Assembly (NCBI GenBank): GCA_003134995.1 | Contig: PLDC01000025.1 | Span: 182,882 to 246,881, forward strand | DNA from: Acidobacteriaceae bacterium | GTDB lineage: Bacteria > Acidobacteriota > Terriglobia > Terriglobales > Acidobacteriaceae | DNA: 64,000 bases | Direction: 5' to 3' | Shown here: positions 6,223 to 11,039 of the stretch, in pieces | Position numbering within the stretch: position 1 is the first letter of the stretch | Layout of the letters: every line of letters starts with the position of its first letter | The notes under the pieces: generated by a model | Told to the model about the DNA's origin: nothing | Database searches by the model: none | Seen by the model: only the letters and a program-made list of their open reading frames with translations | Translations under genes and position numbers: made by a program

Positions 6223-7482
6223 ATGCGAAGATTCGTTCTGACATTTTGCACTCTTCTTCTGTTCGCTGCTTCACTCGCGGCGCAGGGCAAGCGGCTGTGG
6301 GTGCTGCGCGCGCCCGGCGAGGCGGTCGAGTATGATCCCGCGACGTTTGCGGAGAAGCAGACCGTGAAGGTTCCCGCGGAAGCGGTGGAGTCTCCGCAGA
6401 ACTTCTCGGTGAACCGCCTCGGGCAGATGCTGTTTGCTGCGCCTGTCTCTTTGCCGCTTGTAGAGGGCGATCTCGGGGCTGAGCGCAAGGTGTGGTTCTG
6501 GGATGGCAAGACAGCGACTACGCTTTCGCGCGAAGTCTCCCGGACTACATCTACGGCGGGATCGAATCTGGCGATCGCCGAAGCGGCGCCTGTGCCTTAC
6601 ATGTCGGCCGATGGCGTGCATCTTTATTGGTTTTCGAACCAGGCGCGGCGGTTGCAGCGCGATGGCATTGATCTCTCGACGAAGACGACCTGGCTTAGCT
6701 GGCGGACTGATCTGGCAGGTGCGGGACGCGAGGATGTCGCGTCGATCGCGCTTCCTGAATGCTTGTGCCCGAGCGGGAGCTGCGAAGAGAGTTGTCCTTA
6801 TAGCGAGATGTGGGTTCCCGACGATGGGGTTGGCAAGTTCGTTCTGATGACGCAGTTCGTCGCGGGGAAGGCGCAACCGGTTTACAAGGCTACATCTTTA
6901 TATGAAGAGAACGCCGGCAAATGGACGGCGACGTCAGTCGATCCTCCGCTGCGGCGAGTGTTGGATGCCGCGAATGCTGGCGCGATCTTAGAGGCGATTC
7001 CTGACACCGCTTGTTGCGGATGGGAGAATGAGAGCGACGATCGGACTGTGTTGCATTTGCAAGGGAAGACATTGACCGTGTTCGATGAGCAAGCTGCGTA
7101 TAAGAATCCTGACTACGACGTCAGCTTCTATACCGAGAACGCCAAGCTTGCTTCTGACATCTCGTCGGTGGCATTGACGATCGTTGCGACTTCTCAGCCG
7201 AACACTCCCATTCAACTTGCCGAGCAGGGGCAGGCGAATCCGGAAGAGTCGCAGCGCATTCGTAAGGCGTTGCTGGATCTGCCGGCGGTCGAGGTGAAGA
7301 GTGTTGGGGATGCTCCGCGACGGATTGCCTTTTTGCCTCACGCGGCACTGATTGGCTGGATTAGCTCTAAGGAAATAATTATCATAGAAGGTAATCTATT
7401 GGTTGCGTACAACGTGACGAACGGGTCACGGCGAAAATCAAACATTCGAGTTGAGGATGCGGCGCATGTGTTCTTGCGGTGA
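6223..7482 (+). CDS. Exported hypothetical protein
   Basis: A 419-residue protein from the ATG at 6223, opening with a clear signal peptide (MRRFVLTFCTLLLFAASLAAQ, cleavage after about residue 20). The rest is a soluble domain with scattered aromatic and WSN/WFWDG motifs suggesting a beta-rich fold. A cysteine-rich stretch (CLCPSGSCEESC) occurs in the middle. I do not recognise a family. An upstream ATG at 6178 would place 15 residues before the signal and is less likely. The IS element begins about 200 bp downstream. Confidence 0.65.
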   Translation: MRRFVLTFCTLLLFAASLAAQGKRLWVLRAPGEAVEYDPATFAEKQTVKVPAEAVESPQNFSVNRLGQMLFAAPVSLPLVEGDLGAERKVWFWDGKTATTLSREVSRTTSTAGSNLAIAEAAPVPYMSADGVHLYWFSNQARRLQRDGIDLSTKTTWLSWRTDLAGAGREDVASIALPECLCPSGSCEESCPYSEMWVPDDGVGKFVLMTQFVAGKAQPVYKATSLYEENAGKWTATSVDPPLRRVLDAANAGAILEAIPDTACCGWENESDDRTVLHLQGKTLTVFDEQAAYKNPDYDVSFYTENAKLASDISSVALTIVATSQPNTPIQLAEQGQANPEESQRIRKALLDLPAVEVKSVGDAPRRIAFLPHAALIGWISSKEIIIIEGNLLVAYNVTNGSRRKSNIRVEDAAHVFLR

Positions 7483-7579
7483 GAGATCGGTGGGCCGGTC
7501 CCTCCCGTTTTAGATTGTGGAATACGCTCGCAAAATAAATTTTGGCCGGACATCGGCGAATTCTGCGGGATTGGCGAAT

Positions 7580-7620
7580 CAGCCGGATTTCGCGAGATTT
7601 TTTTTTCGCGGATCCGGCTG
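7580..7620. terminator. Hairpin downstream of the exported protein gene
   Basis: CAGCCGGAT (7580-7588) pairs with ATCCGGCTG (7612-7620), and an inner CGCGA/TCGCG pair extends the stem. The loop carries a run of Ts. It may act as a terminator for the gene ending at 7482, though no T-run follows the stem. Confidence 0.4.
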
Positions 7621-7698
7621 AAATCCTTGTCCAGCGCGGGTTTCGTCAAAGTGGACTTCGTAAGATCCTGCTTTCAAAGAACTTAGATATCAAAATCT

Positions 7699-7729
7699 CG
7701 GAATTAGGCACTTGACAAACCCATGCAAT
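7699..7729 (+). repeat. Left terminal inverted repeat of the IS element
   Basis: 31 bases starting CGGAATTA and matching the right end at 25 positions. It is preceded immediately by the target duplication CAAAATCT. Confidence 0.9.
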
Positions 7730-7746
7730 TCAGTTAATGTTTACGC

Positions 7747-8739
7747 ATGGAAACGAATGAACTCAATCTAATCGCGCTGGCTCAACACTTTAGCGATGAA
7801 GATAAGGCGCGGGAATTTATCGAAAAACTCCGCTGGCCTGATGGCCCTATCTGTCCGCACTGCGGCGAGATCAATAACGCCTATCGGCTAGAGCCTAAGC
7901 CCTCCAAGAAGGGCACGCACGTCCGCAAAGGCGTGTGGAAGTGTGGCGGATGCCGTGAGCAGTTCACCGTTACCGTGGGAACGATATTCGAGGATTCCCA
8001 TATCCCCTTGAGCAAGTGGTTGCTGGCCTATCACCTGCTTTGTGCCAGCAAGAAGGGCATGAGCGCCCATCAGCTTCATCGAATGCTCAAGGTCACATAC
8101 AGGAGTGCATGGTTCATGGCCCATCGGATTCGTTACACGATGGCTCAAGAACCATTGTCATCGAAACTCACTGGCATTATCGAAGTTGATGAAACTTACG
8201 TTGGCGGAAAGTTGCGAGTCGGAGCGTATCGGAAACGGCCATACATGAAAGATCGCGGCGAGAAGCGCGTCTATCCTTCCGTCACTTCCAACAAAGCAGC
8301 CGTGGTTTCCGTGTTGCAGCGCGGCGGACGTGTCCAGTCTCGCCATGTAGAGCGCGTCACGGCTGAGAACCTGAAGCCAATCGTTAACCAGATGATCGCA
8401 GAAGATGCCCACGTAATGACGGATAGCTCTACCGTACTGAAAGCCGGATTGATCGCCCGCAAGCACGATCAGGTGAACCATGTGGCGAAAGAATACGTTC
8501 GGTACGAGGATGGTGTCTGCATCACAACGAACACGATTGAGGGCTATTTTGCCACTTTGAAACGCGGCATAAACGGTGTATACCATCACGTCGGCAAACA
8601 GCACCTACACCGCTACTTGAGCGAGTTTGATTTTCGTTACAACTCTCGCAAGGAGAAAGACGGAGATCGCACCCTGATGGCGCTCAAGAGCACAGGCGGA
8701 AAGCGGTTAATGCTGCGGGACTCGGTAAAGGTCAGCTGA
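7747..8739 (+). CDS. IS1595-family transposase
   Basis: A 330-residue DDE-type transposase of the ISXO2/IS1595 family. The N-terminal zinc ribbon uses Cys36, Cys39, Cys66 and Cys69. A helical DNA-binding region follows at about 85-135. The catalytic triad is probably Asp148 (IIEVDETYVGGK), Asp226 (HVMTDSST) and Glu265 (NTIEGYFATLKRG). The C-terminal LHRYLSEFDFRYN block is typical of the family. No strong ribosome-binding site precedes the ATG. The reading frame is intact. Confidence 0.95.
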   Translation: METNELNLIALAQHFSDEDKAREFIEKLRWPDGPICPHCGEINNAYRLEPKPSKKGTHVRKGVWKCGGCREQFTVTVGTIFEDSHIPLSKWLLAYHLLCASKKGMSAHQLHRMLKVTYRSAWFMAHRIRYTMAQEPLSSKLTGIIEVDETYVGGKLRVGAYRKRPYMKDRGEKRVYPSVTSNKAAVVSVLQRGGRVQSRHVERVTAENLKPIVNQMIAEDAHVMTDSSTVLKAGLIARKHDQVNHVAKEYVRYEDGVCITTNTIEGYFATLKRGINGVYHHVGKQHLHRYLSEFDFRYNSRKEKDGDRTLMALKSTGGKRLMLRDSVKVS

Positions 8740-8937
8740 AGTAGTCACCCTGCTCATTCTTGGCGGAAGGTTTGGGGTGAAAACATCTTACTTAGCATCA
8801 CTCAAGGTGCTCGTTCTGCATCGCCAGTATAAGTGTGCCCGCAGAAAGGAGTCTACAACATGCGGGCATATAATTCCACCTACATAGAAGAATTGGCGCA
8901 GCGCGTTCACCCACGCGACGGCAGGAAGGAGTTCTGC

Positions 8938-9762
8938 ATGATAGAGGCATACATGGACGAAAGCGGCATTCATGATGGCGCTCACGTCTGTGTCATCGCA
9001 GGATATTGGGGCACTGTGAAGAAGTGGAAGAAGTTTGAGGATCGCTGGAAAGCCATTTTGCGCGATGCTGGTGAGCCAACGCTCAAGGAGTTTCATAGCA
9101 CGGATTTTTGGCACAAAGACGATAGCCGCAAGGGAGTCTTTGCTAGATGGAGCAACCAGAAGGCTGACCGATTTATAGACGATCTGGCGGGTTGCATTGC
9201 CGATGCGAAGATATTTCCGACCTTTTGCTCCGTCGTCATGGACGAGTGGAAAAAATTAAATAAGAATGAGCGGCGCTTTCTGACGGGCGGGCGGTATAAC
9301 AACAAGACGCATGAGTGGGTAACGCAGGGAGCGCCGAACAAGCCCTATTTTTGGCCGTTCCAGGTTGCGATACTAAATCCAGTATTGGCGTGCGCTGATG
9401 GCTTGCATGTCCATTACACATTCGACCTGAACAAACAGTTCAAGAATCATGCTGTCGGTCTTTATGCCTTGCTTAAGTCCGACAACAGTTTCGCGCATCG
9501 TCACAAACTGGGTTCCTTGGACATGGAGAATGGCGAAGTGGCGGTCGGGCTACAAGCCGCCGATTTATTAGCCTATCGACAGTACAAGTTGGCGAAGACT
9601 CGGTTGGAACACGGCAGACCGATGCTGTTTGAGAGCGCCCCCAAACTCATAAAGAAACTTCTGGAGAATATAAGAGACCCACGAGATTTAGTGTTTTACG
9701 ACAAGCACAATCTAGACATCGCCTTGAGGGGTCTATCTCCCGAGCTAAGGAGTAACCAATGA
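8938..9762 (+). CDS. DUF3800 protein, cargo of the IS element
   Basis: A 274-residue protein from the ATG at 8938, chosen because AGGAAGGAG lies seven bases upstream; an upstream start at 8833 adds unconserved sequence. The N-terminal YMDESG and the C-terminal GLQAADLLAY motifs identify the DUF3800 family, which is often associated with mobile elements and is thought to adopt an RNase H-like nuclease fold. No activity is established. Its stop codon overlaps the next start as ATGA, so the two cargo genes should be cotranslated. It lies wholly inside the terminal repeats of the element. Confidence 0.85.
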   Translation: MIEAYMDESGIHDGAHVCVIAGYWGTVKKWKKFEDRWKAILRDAGEPTLKEFHSTDFWHKDDSRKGVFARWSNQKADRFIDDLAGCIADAKIFPTFCSVVMDEWKKLNKNERRFLTGGRYNNKTHEWVTQGAPNKPYFWPFQVAILNPVLACADGLHVHYTFDLNKQFKNHAVGLYALLKSDNSFAHRHKLGSLDMENGEVAVGLQAADLLAYRQYKLAKTRLEHGRPMLFESAPKLIKKLLENIRDPRDLVFYDKHNLDIALRGLSPELRSNQ

Positions 9763-9884
9763 GCACCGAACCAAAAAAGGTCACAAACTCGAAACCCATC
9801 CCTCACATTCCTCTGCCCTTCAAGGAAGTCATGGCCGATGTGCTCAAGGTGAAACCACCAAAGAAAACTCCCAAGAAACGGTGA
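9759..9884 (+). CDS. 41-residue basic protein coupled to the DUF3800 gene
   Basis: A small gene starting in an ATGA overlap with the DUF3800 stop codon. The product is lysine- and proline-rich, with IPHIPLPFKEVMADVLKV in the middle and a basic KPPKKTPKKR tail. It has no recognised domain. The overlap, the sensible composition and its position within the IS boundaries support it as a real gene. It might be an adaptor or regulator of the DUF3800 protein, but that is inference from position. Confidence 0.6.
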   Translation: MSTEPKKVTNSKPIPHIPLPFKEVMADVLKVKPPKKTPKKR

Positions 9885-9917
9885 GCGCCCTGTCACGGCG
9901 ATCTTACTGTGTCATTT

Positions 9918-9948
9918 ATGACACGGGTTTGTCAAAGGCATAATTCCG
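9918..9948 (-). repeat. Right terminal inverted repeat of the IS element
   Basis: Read on the minus strand it starts CGGAATTA and contains TTGACAAACCC. The second CAAAATCT duplication follows it directly at 9949-9956. Confidence 0.9.
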
Positions 9949-9956
9949 CAAAATCT

Positions 9957-10316
9957 TGAGAACAAACAACTTAGCAGGGGAGGTTTCGCGCTGGGCGAAC
10001 CGTCACTGCCTCGACCATGATCATCCACTTTGATTCTGGGCGCAAGGTCAGATGTCACAATGGGGCTGTGGAAAAGTCGGAAGCGACGGGCTAAAAGCCC
10101 GGTTCTATTTGGGGGGACTCGGCGCGGCGCCGAAGCGCCGCTCTTCCACGTATAGAAGGCGGGGACAGCAGGTTCCTCCGCTGCGCCGTCGCTGGCGCTC
10201 CGGCTCCGGTCGGAATGACAGGAGCGTAAGTAAGCTTAACCGCAGAGTTCCCACTTCTCGCAAAAGACGCGAGAAATATGCCCCAGGTCTGAATATTTTG
10301 GCTAACCCCTTACGAG
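9957..10316. other. Gene-free, repeat-bearing spacer
   Basis: About 360 bp right of the IS with no convincing gene. It holds short palindromes such as CGGGCT-AAA-AGCCCG (10087-10101), a GGCGC-rich inverted motif around 10121-10140, and a degenerate copy of the GCAAAAGACGCGAG-type repeat near 10246-10275. An open frame across it (10052-10522) is compositionally repeat-derived and runs antisense into the next gene. Confidence 0.6.
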
Positions 10317-11039
10317 CTATGCAGTTTTTGGTTTTAGTTGGGCTTCGATTTTGGCTAGCAGGCCGGAGCTGGCTTCGCCGGCATCGAGGGTGGAGAAGTC
10401 GCTGCCTAATTCGATTACCGGGAGTTTGGCACAGGCAGCTTGAAATGCTTGTAGCGCGCCTGGGGATGAGGAGGTCATGCCGGGTCCGGCAAGGAGCAGG
10501 TCGAAACGGGTGGCGCGCATGAGCATTAGGGCGTCGCCACGGTGACTGCTGGTGGAAACGTCGTAGCCGGCGCGGCGCAATAGTTCGCGCAGGTAGGCTA
10601 GCATGTCGGCATTGCCATCGAGGCAGAGAACGCTGGGGCCGGTGAATGCGGGAGCTTCGGCGCGCGGACCGGGGCGATAGAAAGCTGCGACTGCGGCCTC
10701 CTCTGATTCCTGAGGGTCGAACAAGGGCGTGAGGTGCGAGAGTTCGAGAACTTTGCGCACAACGCCGGGCACGTTGCAGAGCTTCAGTTCGCCGTGGGCC
10801 TGACGGGTGCTGGTCATCATGCGGACCAGGGTGCCGAGTCCGCTGCTGTCGATGAAATCGACTTCGCCGAGATGGAGCACGATGCTGCGGCGGTCACGCA
10901 GTAAATGTGCCACGTGCGCGCGGAGAGCCTCGGCCTCGCCTCCGGCGACAATGCGGCCTTTGCAGTGCACGATGGTGACGCGGCCTACTTCACGGGTGTC
11001 TAGTGTTAAGCGCAATGGGTTCGATGGGCGAACGGACAT
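10317..11039 (-). CDS. STAS domain fused to a degenerate receiver-like domain
   Basis: A 240-residue regulatory protein. Residues about 8-115 form a STAS domain with the serine motif FIDSSGLGTLV, like SpoIIAA. A linker of about 20 residues leads to a second domain at about 133-238 that resembles a CheY-type receiver: VLCLDGNADMLAYLRELLRRAGYDV. In it the strand that should end in the phosphoacceptor aspartate reads FDLLLAGPG, so phosphorylation there is doubtful. It may act as a partner-switching protein with a ligand- or protein-sensing pseudo-receiver. No kinase or sigma factor is adjacent. The G-rich repeat tract lies just upstream of its start. Confidence 0.8.
   Translation of the reverse strand: MSVRPSNPLRLTLDTREVGRVTIVHCKGRIVAGGEAEALRAHVAHLLRDRRSIVLHLGEVDFIDSSGLGTLVRMMTSTRQAHGELKLCNVPGVVRKVLELSHLTPLFDPQESEEAAVAAFYRPGPRAEAPAFTGPSVLCLDGNADMLAYLRELLRRAGYDVSTSSHRGDALMLMRATRFDLLLAGPGMTSSSPGALQAFQAACAKLPVIELGSDFSTLDAGEASSGLLAKIEAQLKPKTA

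Follow-up and report, generated by a model that had tools for sequence, protein, structure and literature searches.

An IS1595-family transposon with a constant core and a probably exchangeable cargo slot

A short transposon in the genome of a soil bacterium of the family Acidobacteriaceae raises the question of which of its genes serve the element itself and which are cargo. It lies in the stretch of DNA analyzed here (64,000 nucleotides of contig PLDC01000025.1, referred to as the window), where it takes up 2,250 bp, from 7699 to 9948, between perfect CAAAATCT duplications. An earlier note, made from the sequence alone, had described an IS1595-type element with 31-bp imperfect inverted ends and CAAAATCT on both sides, and the sequence, a repeat finder, and profile searches bear that description out. 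The repeat finder paired 27 nt of the ends at 85% identity (7699 to 7725 with 9922 to 9948). Terminal inverted repeats with an 8-bp target duplication, a trait of the IS1595 family, were evident in the sequence, from the repeat finder, and in empty sites. The open transposase and two extra genes reported inside the ends are also present, the transposase frame being intact and the other two being a DUF3800 gene and a 41-codon open reading frame (ORF) (Table 1). We consider it quite probable that the whole is a complete IS1595-family transposon with a constant core, an exchangeable cargo slot, and a transplanted DUF3800 gene. The core would consist of a left end with a promoter and the transposase, one small basic protein, and the right end.

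Table 1. Features of the element and its insertion site (positions in the window)
Feature	Position	Strand	Basis
Dispersed target repeat, left half	7618..7698		Repeat copies compared
Target-site duplication, left copy, CAAAATCT	7691..7698		Sequence; uninterrupted repeat copies have one CAAAATCT at this point
Left terminal inverted repeat, 31 nt	7699..7729	+	25 of 31 positions agree with the right end (own count)
Probable transposase promoter, in or beside the left end	7712..7740	+	Inferred from TTGACA (7712-7717), 17 nt, TAATGT (7735-7740)
IS1595-family DDE transposase, 330 aa, zinc ribbon and ISXO2-like catalytic domain	7747..8739	+	ORF, Pfam, NF033547, alignment
Scar, about 12 codons, PKPSAKNEQGDY	8741..8780	-	Start of a small gene, no start codon, cut off at the transposase stop
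DUF3800 cargo gene	8860..9762	+	300 aa from ATG 8860 behind AAAGGAG (8845-8851); ORF opens at GTG 8833
Small core ORF, type A, 41 aa, KPIPHIPLPFKEVMADVLKVKPP and basic tail	9759..9884	+	Profile match; codon-position variation
Right terminal inverted repeat	9918..9948	-	Sequence and repeat finder
Target-site duplication, right copy, CAAAATCT	9949..9956		Sequence
Dispersed target repeat, right half	9957..10066		Repeat copies compared

The transposase matched the IS1595-family catalytic domain (PF12762, DDE_Tnp_IS1595; E value of 4.1e-32), the N-terminal zinc ribbon (PF12760; 9.8e-13), and the NF033547 model "IS1595 family transposase" (4.1e-52; 177 bits against a cut-off of 75). Residues D148, D226, and E265, which we take to be the catalytic acidic triad, were invariant across 19 aligned transposases. 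The enzyme would act on both ends and insert the element with an 8-bp duplication, and in keeping with the intact transposase the element may be mobile still. A promoter scan made no call for the TTGACA/TAATGT promoter, and the consensus of the 85 left ends described below shows TTGACA-17-TAtaaT (lower case, below 50%). Because the start codon lies 7 nt past TAATGT, the transposase message is possibly leaderless.

The element interrupts a dispersed repeat. When the empty site was sought, as the earlier note had proposed, it could be read in uninterrupted repeat copies of the same genome, each with a single CAAAATCT. A related element in another genome (L143) occupies the same 8-bp target in the opposite orientation, and insertion here would have been at a hot spot inside an extragenic repeat. 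Known RNAs were ruled out as the identity of this repeat, with none found among 8 copies, and a promoter of one gene type was rejected since the neighboring genes, compared by eye, differ. The proposed search for other copies in the host genome turned up none besides that in the window, the next-best match covering 50 bp within a different IS1595 transposase. A recent arrival, as the earlier note had it, is consistent with the perfect duplication; the single copy in the one genome examined leaves that part of the claim weakly supported.

To place the element among its relatives, we mapped the boundaries of 85 related elements in many phyla, 1,744 to 4,643 bp long and all with cargo, at loci chosen by transposase similarity and not at random. 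Ends were called where an exact 8-bp duplication accompanied a match of at least 15 of 25 end positions (21 of 25 for the window element). Ends were found in this way at 97 of 149 transposase loci. In controls with the downstream DNA reversed, with two separate shuffles of it, or with DNA of a different locus in its place, the rule found ends at 2, 2 and 0, and 2 of 149, so that the calls exceed chance and about 2 of the 97 could be false. The 97 calls (41 plus 56) became 85 on removal of 11 duplicates and of L295, which was taken out before counting; its call was 1,097 bp long with a 15/25 end match and a "duplication" inside the end motif, and without the duplication rule it measures 2,307 bp. 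Viral contigs, for which a 17/25 end match was required and one duplicate was dropped, gave 35 further elements, each of at least 1,787 bp. Two annotated plasmid relatives were inspected as well and left out of the analysis. The left ends of the 85 have the consensus GGgAATTATATACTTGACAAACCCA. The boundaries drawn in the earlier note agree with those of the relatives, both in the common end motif and in the transposase start, which falls at element position 49 in 22 of the 85, the window element included.

Across these elements a constant core was observed with changing cargo. Among transposase pairs at least 70% identical, the small-ORF type was the same in 41 of 41 typed pairs and homologous cargo was found in 5 of 50; for nearest transposase neighbors the values were 45 of 46 typed and 5 of 85, and in the viral set 4 of 35 nearest neighbors had homologous cargo. 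L128 and L129, from one genome, are 91% identical in DNA over bases 1 to 1268 and then do not match until the last 26 bp. Cargo differs in two of the three transposase pairs above 90% identity, and the most similar pair (L321 and L324, 98%) has common cargo.

It is improbable, in our judgment, that this is an ordinary IS1595 element with accidental passengers and that the cargo pattern reflects the sampling of loci, although the loci were picked by transposase similarity, cargo-bearing IS1595 elements are documented, and at least 92 of 150 cargo ORFs had no Pfam match. No bare element was found among the 85 and 35 delimited elements. A further 15 of 53 loci, a few being duplicates, yielded paired ends with no exact duplication beside them, and none of these was bare either. 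Moreover, toxin-antitoxin and nuclease families are overrepresented in the cargo: among the 150 longest of 167 cargo ORFs there were 15 PIN, 5 PIN_10, 5 DUF433, and 4 SocA (SocA/Panacea) matches, compared with at most 1 each among the 150 longest of 154 flank ORFs. The small ORFs, too, are absent from the flanks, as the profiles together matched 56 of the 85 elements and no flank. The type A profile accounted for 28 elements with 0 in flanks, and 29 elements had no match to any profile, type B matching its own seeds only. Among the viral elements, 16 of 35 had a match, and one flank scored as well. A regular expression, later replaced by the profiles, had hit 19 of 41 elements, 4 of 41 reversed, 0 to 3 of 41 shuffled, and 5 of 74 flanks.

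The earlier note had counted both extra genes as cargo. Since small-ORF type tracks the transposase while the cargo differs, the 41-aa ORF looks like core, and it is the DUF3800 gene that appears exchangeable. Variable sites in the 41-aa ORF fall 4/2/20 on the three codon positions, and the ORF is under selection at the protein level. The small protein would serve the element and not the particular cargo, most likely as a transposase partner or regulator. A different reading takes the DUF3800 protein as a toxin and the 41-aa protein as its translationally coupled antitoxin, carried together as ordinary cargo. The 41-aa ORF shares 4 nt with the end of the DUF3800 gene, PIN-domain genes stand beside a partner gene in sibling elements, and antitoxins can be small basic proteins. 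We nonetheless regard such a pair as unlikely because the small ORF also accompanies other cargo (PIN pairs in L143 to L146 and, named by eye, DUF433/PIN-like ORFs in L152) and follows the transposase, and because DUF3800 in other IS1595 loci adjoins a different small gene. The dedicated pairing of a type II module was not seen, and the 41-aa ORF was rejected as a private antitoxin of DUF3800.

A conserved noncoding element between transposase and cargo, at 8741 to 8780, was considered and rejected, as the stretch is the start of a reverse-strand small gene, with 86 to 96% DNA identity over 26 to 40 bp to six genomes. By context, translation, and alignment, the intact gene and the transposase converge in other IS1595 loci, and there the gene stands beside DUF3800. 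Because the scar holds the truncated beginning of another IS1595-associated small gene, the DUF3800 block appears to have been transplanted. Its source would most likely be a separate lineage of IS1595 elements that has DUF3800 behind the convergent small gene, and the broken start of the donor's gene would have been left behind. If this is right, the scar records a concrete transfer of cargo from one transposon lineage to another. No donor was found, as the closest DUF3800 homologs (51%, 44%, and 43%) sit on stretches where there is no IS1595 transposase and no ends were detected.

The DUF3800 protein, whose start we placed by our own reading of the AAAGGAG motif, matched its family profile (PF12686) with an E value of 1.1e-6 and 29.8 bits (cut-off of 21). 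In the alignment D42 is nearly invariant and D244 invariant (numbering from 8833). Published modeling (PMC10910872) gives the domain an RNase H fold, and the cargo is probably an RNase H-fold nuclease. A profile search for PDB relatives gave none at an E value of 1, and an AlphaFold2 model made without an alignment had a pLDDT of 40.7. Searches found no DUF3800 in plasmids or as a single protein in named genomes, and among viruses no relatives and no conserved stretch. Rfam contains DUF3800-associated RNA families; a structured RNA of this kind was rejected, with no match in 7200 to 10500 at an E value of 1. The sole Rfam match listed, isrK, scores well under its gathering threshold and lies outside the element. 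The RNase H-like fold claimed for the domain, and an IS1595 transposase ORF within 1.5 kb at 10 of 29 DUF3800 loci (that in the window included), would suit a protein that aids transposition, for example by processing the transposase message or DNA ends, rather than one for addiction or defense. We rate this as quite unlikely: only 2 of the 150 cargo ORFs of the clade matched DUF3800, which is thus not generally needed for movement. The cargo would most likely be a selfish stabilizer or a defense-type nuclease, as the PIN-type toxins may be in sibling elements.

Passenger genes lie inside the ends of the ISNwi and ISNha5 groups. Both groups of the IS1595 family are named in PMC8101967, and the window element resembles the family in its DDE_Tnp_IS1595 domain, N-terminal zinc ribbon, and 8-bp duplication. 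As PMC5704250 describes them, tISCpe8 (a lincomycin resistance element, by a title cited there) and MTnSag1 are mobilizable IS1595-family elements of Firmicutes. In these as here, an IS1595-type transposase moves extra genes between two ends, but the window clade differs in its small nuclease or toxin-antitoxin-type cargo and constant small ORF. The Tn3 family, according to PMC7157771, independently acquired several unrelated toxin-antitoxin pairs within one transposon family; it has another type of transposase and a resolvase, and the pair abuts the res site. In the window clade, by contrast, the cargo is placed between the transposase, the small ORF, and the right end. One-ended capture of the ISEcp1 type gives a constant left module with varying downstream genes. 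The window clade shares this pattern but differs in that both ends match well and that type A has a conserved ORF beyond the cargo, so that capture needs two junctions. Cargo-bearing IS1595 elements are already known. A limited literature search found no constant small ORF with swapping toxin or nuclease cargo in this family, and as far as such searches show, the architecture of constant core and swappable cargo is new.

A bolder and still doubtful proposal is that this widespread clade is a gene-trading platform with fixed ends and a coevolving transposase and small basic protein, in which cargo, often a toxin or nuclease, is replaced much more quickly than the transposase diverges. In that case the small ORF might be dedicated to transposition or cargo exchange, and extragenic repeats might be landing sites where elements meet and swap. 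If the main reading, of a constant core with exchangeable cargo, is right, many small toxin-antitoxin and orphan nuclease genes of environmental bacteria would move on transposons of 2 to 4 kb, which annotation tends to record merely as a transposase beside hypothetical proteins. With the end motif and small-ORF profile, such elements could be delimited and their cargo predicted in one genome after another, and the clade would join Tn3 as a second family for studying why toxin-antitoxin genes are carried on transposons.

The 8-bp duplication and imperfect inverted ends claimed in the earlier note are present, the ends matching at 85% over 27 nt by a repeat finder and at 25 of 31 positions by our own count. 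The transposase between them is likewise open, encoding 330 amino acids with matches to PF12762 (4e-32) and PF12760 (1e-12) in Pfam and NF033547 (4e-52) in NCBIfam, and residues D148, D226, and E265 are unchanged across 19 aligned transposases, including this one. We placed the start of the DUF3800 gene (PF12686, 1.1e-6 in Pfam) at an ATG with AAAGGAG 8 nt upstream; its stop overlaps by 4 nt a 41-aa ORF for which Pfam and NCBIfam searches gave no match. The search for further copies, also proposed in that note, found the complete element once in its own genome (5.62 Mb, 29 contigs searched), which contains 14 IS1595-type transposases above the Pfam cutoff.

Features in and around the element, with the small-protein profiles of related elements
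Feature	Position	Description
Window location	G000:C9:182882-246881	G000, own genome
Target repeat	7618-7698 + 9957-10066	~180 bp
Target-site duplication CAAAATCT	7691-7698 and 9949-9956	perfect copies
Whole element	7699-9948	2,250 bp, flanked by perfect CAAAATCT copies
Transposase	7747-8739 (+)
Scar	8741-8780 (-)	broken start of small gene beside transposase stop
DUF3800 gene, start as placed	8860
Second extragenic repeat	10165-10222	~60 bp
Profile A		KPISLxPLxFxEAxxDLLKVKPP, 28/85 elements
Profile B		FxxhLxxVLxVSKxxL, 8/85 elements
Profile C		hhxRMLxTPPKPHK, 20/85 elements

L-numbers denote the loci examined, and related elements were delimited at those around IS1595 transposases. In a first set of 79 such loci from the same genome and relatives (transposase match in 74, full length in 72), inverted ends with an exact 8-bp duplication were present at 41, as they were at 56 of 80 named loci from public genomes. 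The end-finding rule succeeded at 97 of 149 real loci, versus 0 to 2 of 149 when the downstream DNA was reversed, shuffled, or exchanged. Removal of L295 and duplicates left 85 unique elements of 1,744 to 4,643 bp (median, 2,691), none of them a bare insertion sequence of about 1.1 kb. Another 53 loci without an exact duplication, a few of them mutual duplicates, gave 15 end pairs, the smallest at least 1,590 bp, of which several look spurious. By record title, delimited elements occur in Acidobacteria, Nitrospirae, Nitrospinae, Actinomycetota, Chloroflexi, Ignavibacteriae, Clostridiales, several classes of Proteobacteria, and one Woesearchaeote, with binning errors possible in metagenome-assembled genomes. 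Viral contigs yielded 35 unique elements of 1,787 to 5,055 bp from 80 loci. Relatives of the transposase are encoded on 152 IMG/VR stretches, the best 80 of which (L359 to L438) gave 36 delimitable elements. Such elements may therefore reside on phages or on misassigned host contigs. The left-end consensus of the 85 elements, GGgAATTATATACTTGACAAACCCA...TAtaaT, includes TTGACA-17-TAtaaT, and in 22 of them the transposase starts at base 49, 7 nt past TAtaaT; a promoter inside the left end, with a leaderless transposase message, is therefore plausible. A promoter scan of the window did not call it.

Within these elements we distinguish three related short basic proteins, types A, B, and C, the 41-aa ORF being type A. 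Their profiles match 56 of the 85 elements at E 0.01, a count that includes the seeds, which were drawn from the same elements (nonseed matches: A, 10; B, 0; C, 13). No element has two types, and at that threshold neither reversed sequence nor the flanks, which extended at most 1.6 kb to either side, gave a match. In the viral set, 16 of 35 elements are matched, one match falls in a flank (type C), and profiles A and C both recognize one ORF. A search of 300 genomes of the family with profile A yielded 21 matches, 12 of them at E 1e-9 or better. Nine of the 12 are profile rows; of the remaining three, by our own tally, two (genomes G161 and G078) have an IS1595 transposase or its remnant next to them and one (G071) does not. 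Comparison of the 23-codon core among five close elements shows variation at 4 first, 2 second, and 20 third codon positions, which argues that the type-A ORF encodes a translated protein under selection. A decayed relative in the same genus (L071/L141, G161:C52) has kept only the C-terminal ~118 aa of its transposase (85% DNA identity), together with an ORF that looks PIN-like by eye and that its type-A ORF overlaps by 4 nt, in the same arrangement as in the window.

The small-ORF type follows the transposase. The nearest transposase neighbor agrees in type for 45 of 46 typed elements, a value reached by 0 of 2,000 label shuffles, and has homologous cargo in 5 of 85; homology was scored by phmmer at 1e-5 on ORFs no shorter than 100 aa, so short cargo is missed. 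Among pairs with at least 70% transposase identity, all 41 that are typed agree in type, and 5 of 50 have homologous cargo; in the viral set, cargo is common to 4 of 35 nearest neighbors. The earlier note had two extra genes traveling as cargo: both are present, but the 41-aa ORF looks to be core, since its type tracks the transposase lineage, and its protein probably serves the element rather than the cargo. DNA comparison of 16 pairs showed exactly three common blocks in eight: the left end with the transposase, a block in the middle, and the right end. That middle block is the small ORF in seven of those eight; the remaining eight had no separate middle block or had more in common. L128 and L129, from one genome, are 91% identical over bases 1 to 1268, through the small ORF, and then do not match until the last 26 bp. 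Of the three pairs above 90% transposase identity, cargo differs in L128/L129 and L322/L326 and is the same in L321/L324 (98%), so swaps are not universal. Overall, cargo changes faster than the core diverges. Exchange could occur by recombination between coresident elements through common core blocks or by use of another element's right end.

The cargo is enriched in toxin and nuclease families, a claim that does not extend to all of it. Pfam matches at 0.001 to the longest 150 of 167 cargo ORFs comprised PIN (15), PIN_10 (5), DUF433 (5), SocA_Panacea (4), NYN (2), HTH_66 (2), DUF3800 (2), and single members including Zeta toxin, GmrSD_N, Mrr, HicB, and DUF5615; the tallies sum to at most 58, leaving at least 92 ORFs without a match. 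Among 150 of 154 flanking ORFs, the largest family has at most two members, and the cargo families are absent from the 25 of 85 families listed, so that each accounts for at most 1 of 150. PADLOC gave 71 families, and the 25 that were listed contain a single member apiece, almost all of them methyltransferase models. Among fully delimited relatives, the four closest (L143 to L146) each have a PIN-domain gene after a gene without a Pfam match, and L144 additionally has DUF3825. In the element's own genome, DUF3800 is carried by the window element and L127, a Zeta toxin by L126, and GmrSD_N with a subthreshold HNH by L123; other cargo there includes several proteins that reach no family cutoff. 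An IS1595 transposase ORF lies within 1.5 kb of a DUF3800 gene at 10 of 29 loci, counting that of the window, which is more than we had expected. One cargo protein (L265:3514-5070) has Schlafen AlbA_2 and HATPase_c_4 domains and also matches a PADLOC pAgo model at 7e-49.

The scar beside the transposase stop bears on the origin of the DUF3800 block. Six further genomes of the family contain all or part of it at 86 to 96% identity over 26 to 40 bp, and a seventh (L041) has a 24-bp match. At the loci examined, this match is the start of a small gene convergent with the transposase. The overlap at their stop codons is 4 nt in L068, L065, L062, and L050 and longer in L067, and in L068, L067, and L050 the next gene encodes DUF3800. 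On the reverse strand of the window the scar reads ...HPKPSAKNEQGDYFS-stop, versus MPNRPKPSAKNEQGDYDRFESF in L065. Because the scar matches the start of a convergent small gene found beside DUF3800, the block and its broken neighbor most likely derived from an element of that other layout and were joined right behind the window transposase, the type-A ORF having stayed 3'. We found no donor; the DUF3800 relatives that come nearest (51%, 44%, and 43% identity) lie on stretches without a transposase or detectable ends.

The element interrupts a dispersed extragenic repeat. Joined flanks, used as a query for the empty site, gave some match in 45 of 45 genomes, many not crossing the junction, and crossing matches were seen in several genomes of the genus. 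The site sought is there: CAAAATCT stands at the insertion point of uninterrupted copies, in 8 of 13 fetched (one with an extra base directly after), two of the eight (L213 and L214) being from the element's own genome. That genome has 31 full or partial repeat matches, two being the halves beside the element. The repeat is a hot spot for several IS1595 lineages. In another genome, the L143 element (transposase 85 to 86% identical) occupies the same spot in reverse orientation, its duplication AGATTTTG being the reverse complement; the L174 element lies in the repeat 9 nt away, with duplication CTTAGATA. L128, L127, and L129 lie 18, 17, and 99 bp from repeat matches (duplications CCGCTAAA, CCGCTAAC, and CCGCTAAC), and 91 bp separate L134 from a 29-bp repeat piece. 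Of 12 delimited elements in the element's own genome, 4 (5 counting L134) either interrupt a repeat match or are at most 100 bp from one. When 396 genomes sampled from the phylum were searched at E 1e-6, with two candidates scored for each genome listed, the other 395 gave no match to the repeat, and eight copies matched no Rfam family. The repeat, so far seen only in this genus, has conserved islands among its copies (L213 to L225): TCAAAGAACTTAGATATCAAAATC ... CCGTCACTGCCTCGACCATGAT ... CAAGGTCAGATGTCACA ... CTGTGGAAA. The second extragenic repeat nearby recurs at 83 to 100% identity at dozens of sites across the genus. Elsewhere, L038:1425-3605 is a 2,181-bp element with ends, a DUF3800 gene, and duplication GTTAGGGG, close to the L127/L129 target GTTAGCGG; a search of that locus for a transposase ORF at 1e-6 gave no match.

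Published reports already describe the IS1595 groups and the 8-bp rule (PMC8101967), cargo-bearing IS1595 elements (PMC5704250), and Tn3 transposons with toxin-antitoxin pairs (PMC7157771). Among the matches listed for DUF3800, IS1595 passenger or cargo genes, toxin-antitoxin, ISNwi1, and ISNha5, a set without the defining 2009 paper and ISfinder, the architecture was not described, and we provisionally regard a constant core with swappable cargo as new. Judging from its family, the transposase would move the element. An RNase H fold has been reported from modeling for DUF3800 (PMC10910872); the predicted structure of the protein here reached a pLDDT of only 40.7, and D42 and D244 are its conspicuous conserved acidic residues. 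By analogy with the PIN cargo of sibling elements, the reading we favor, at roughly even chances, is that the DUF3800 protein is a nuclease that stabilizes the element or defends the cell.
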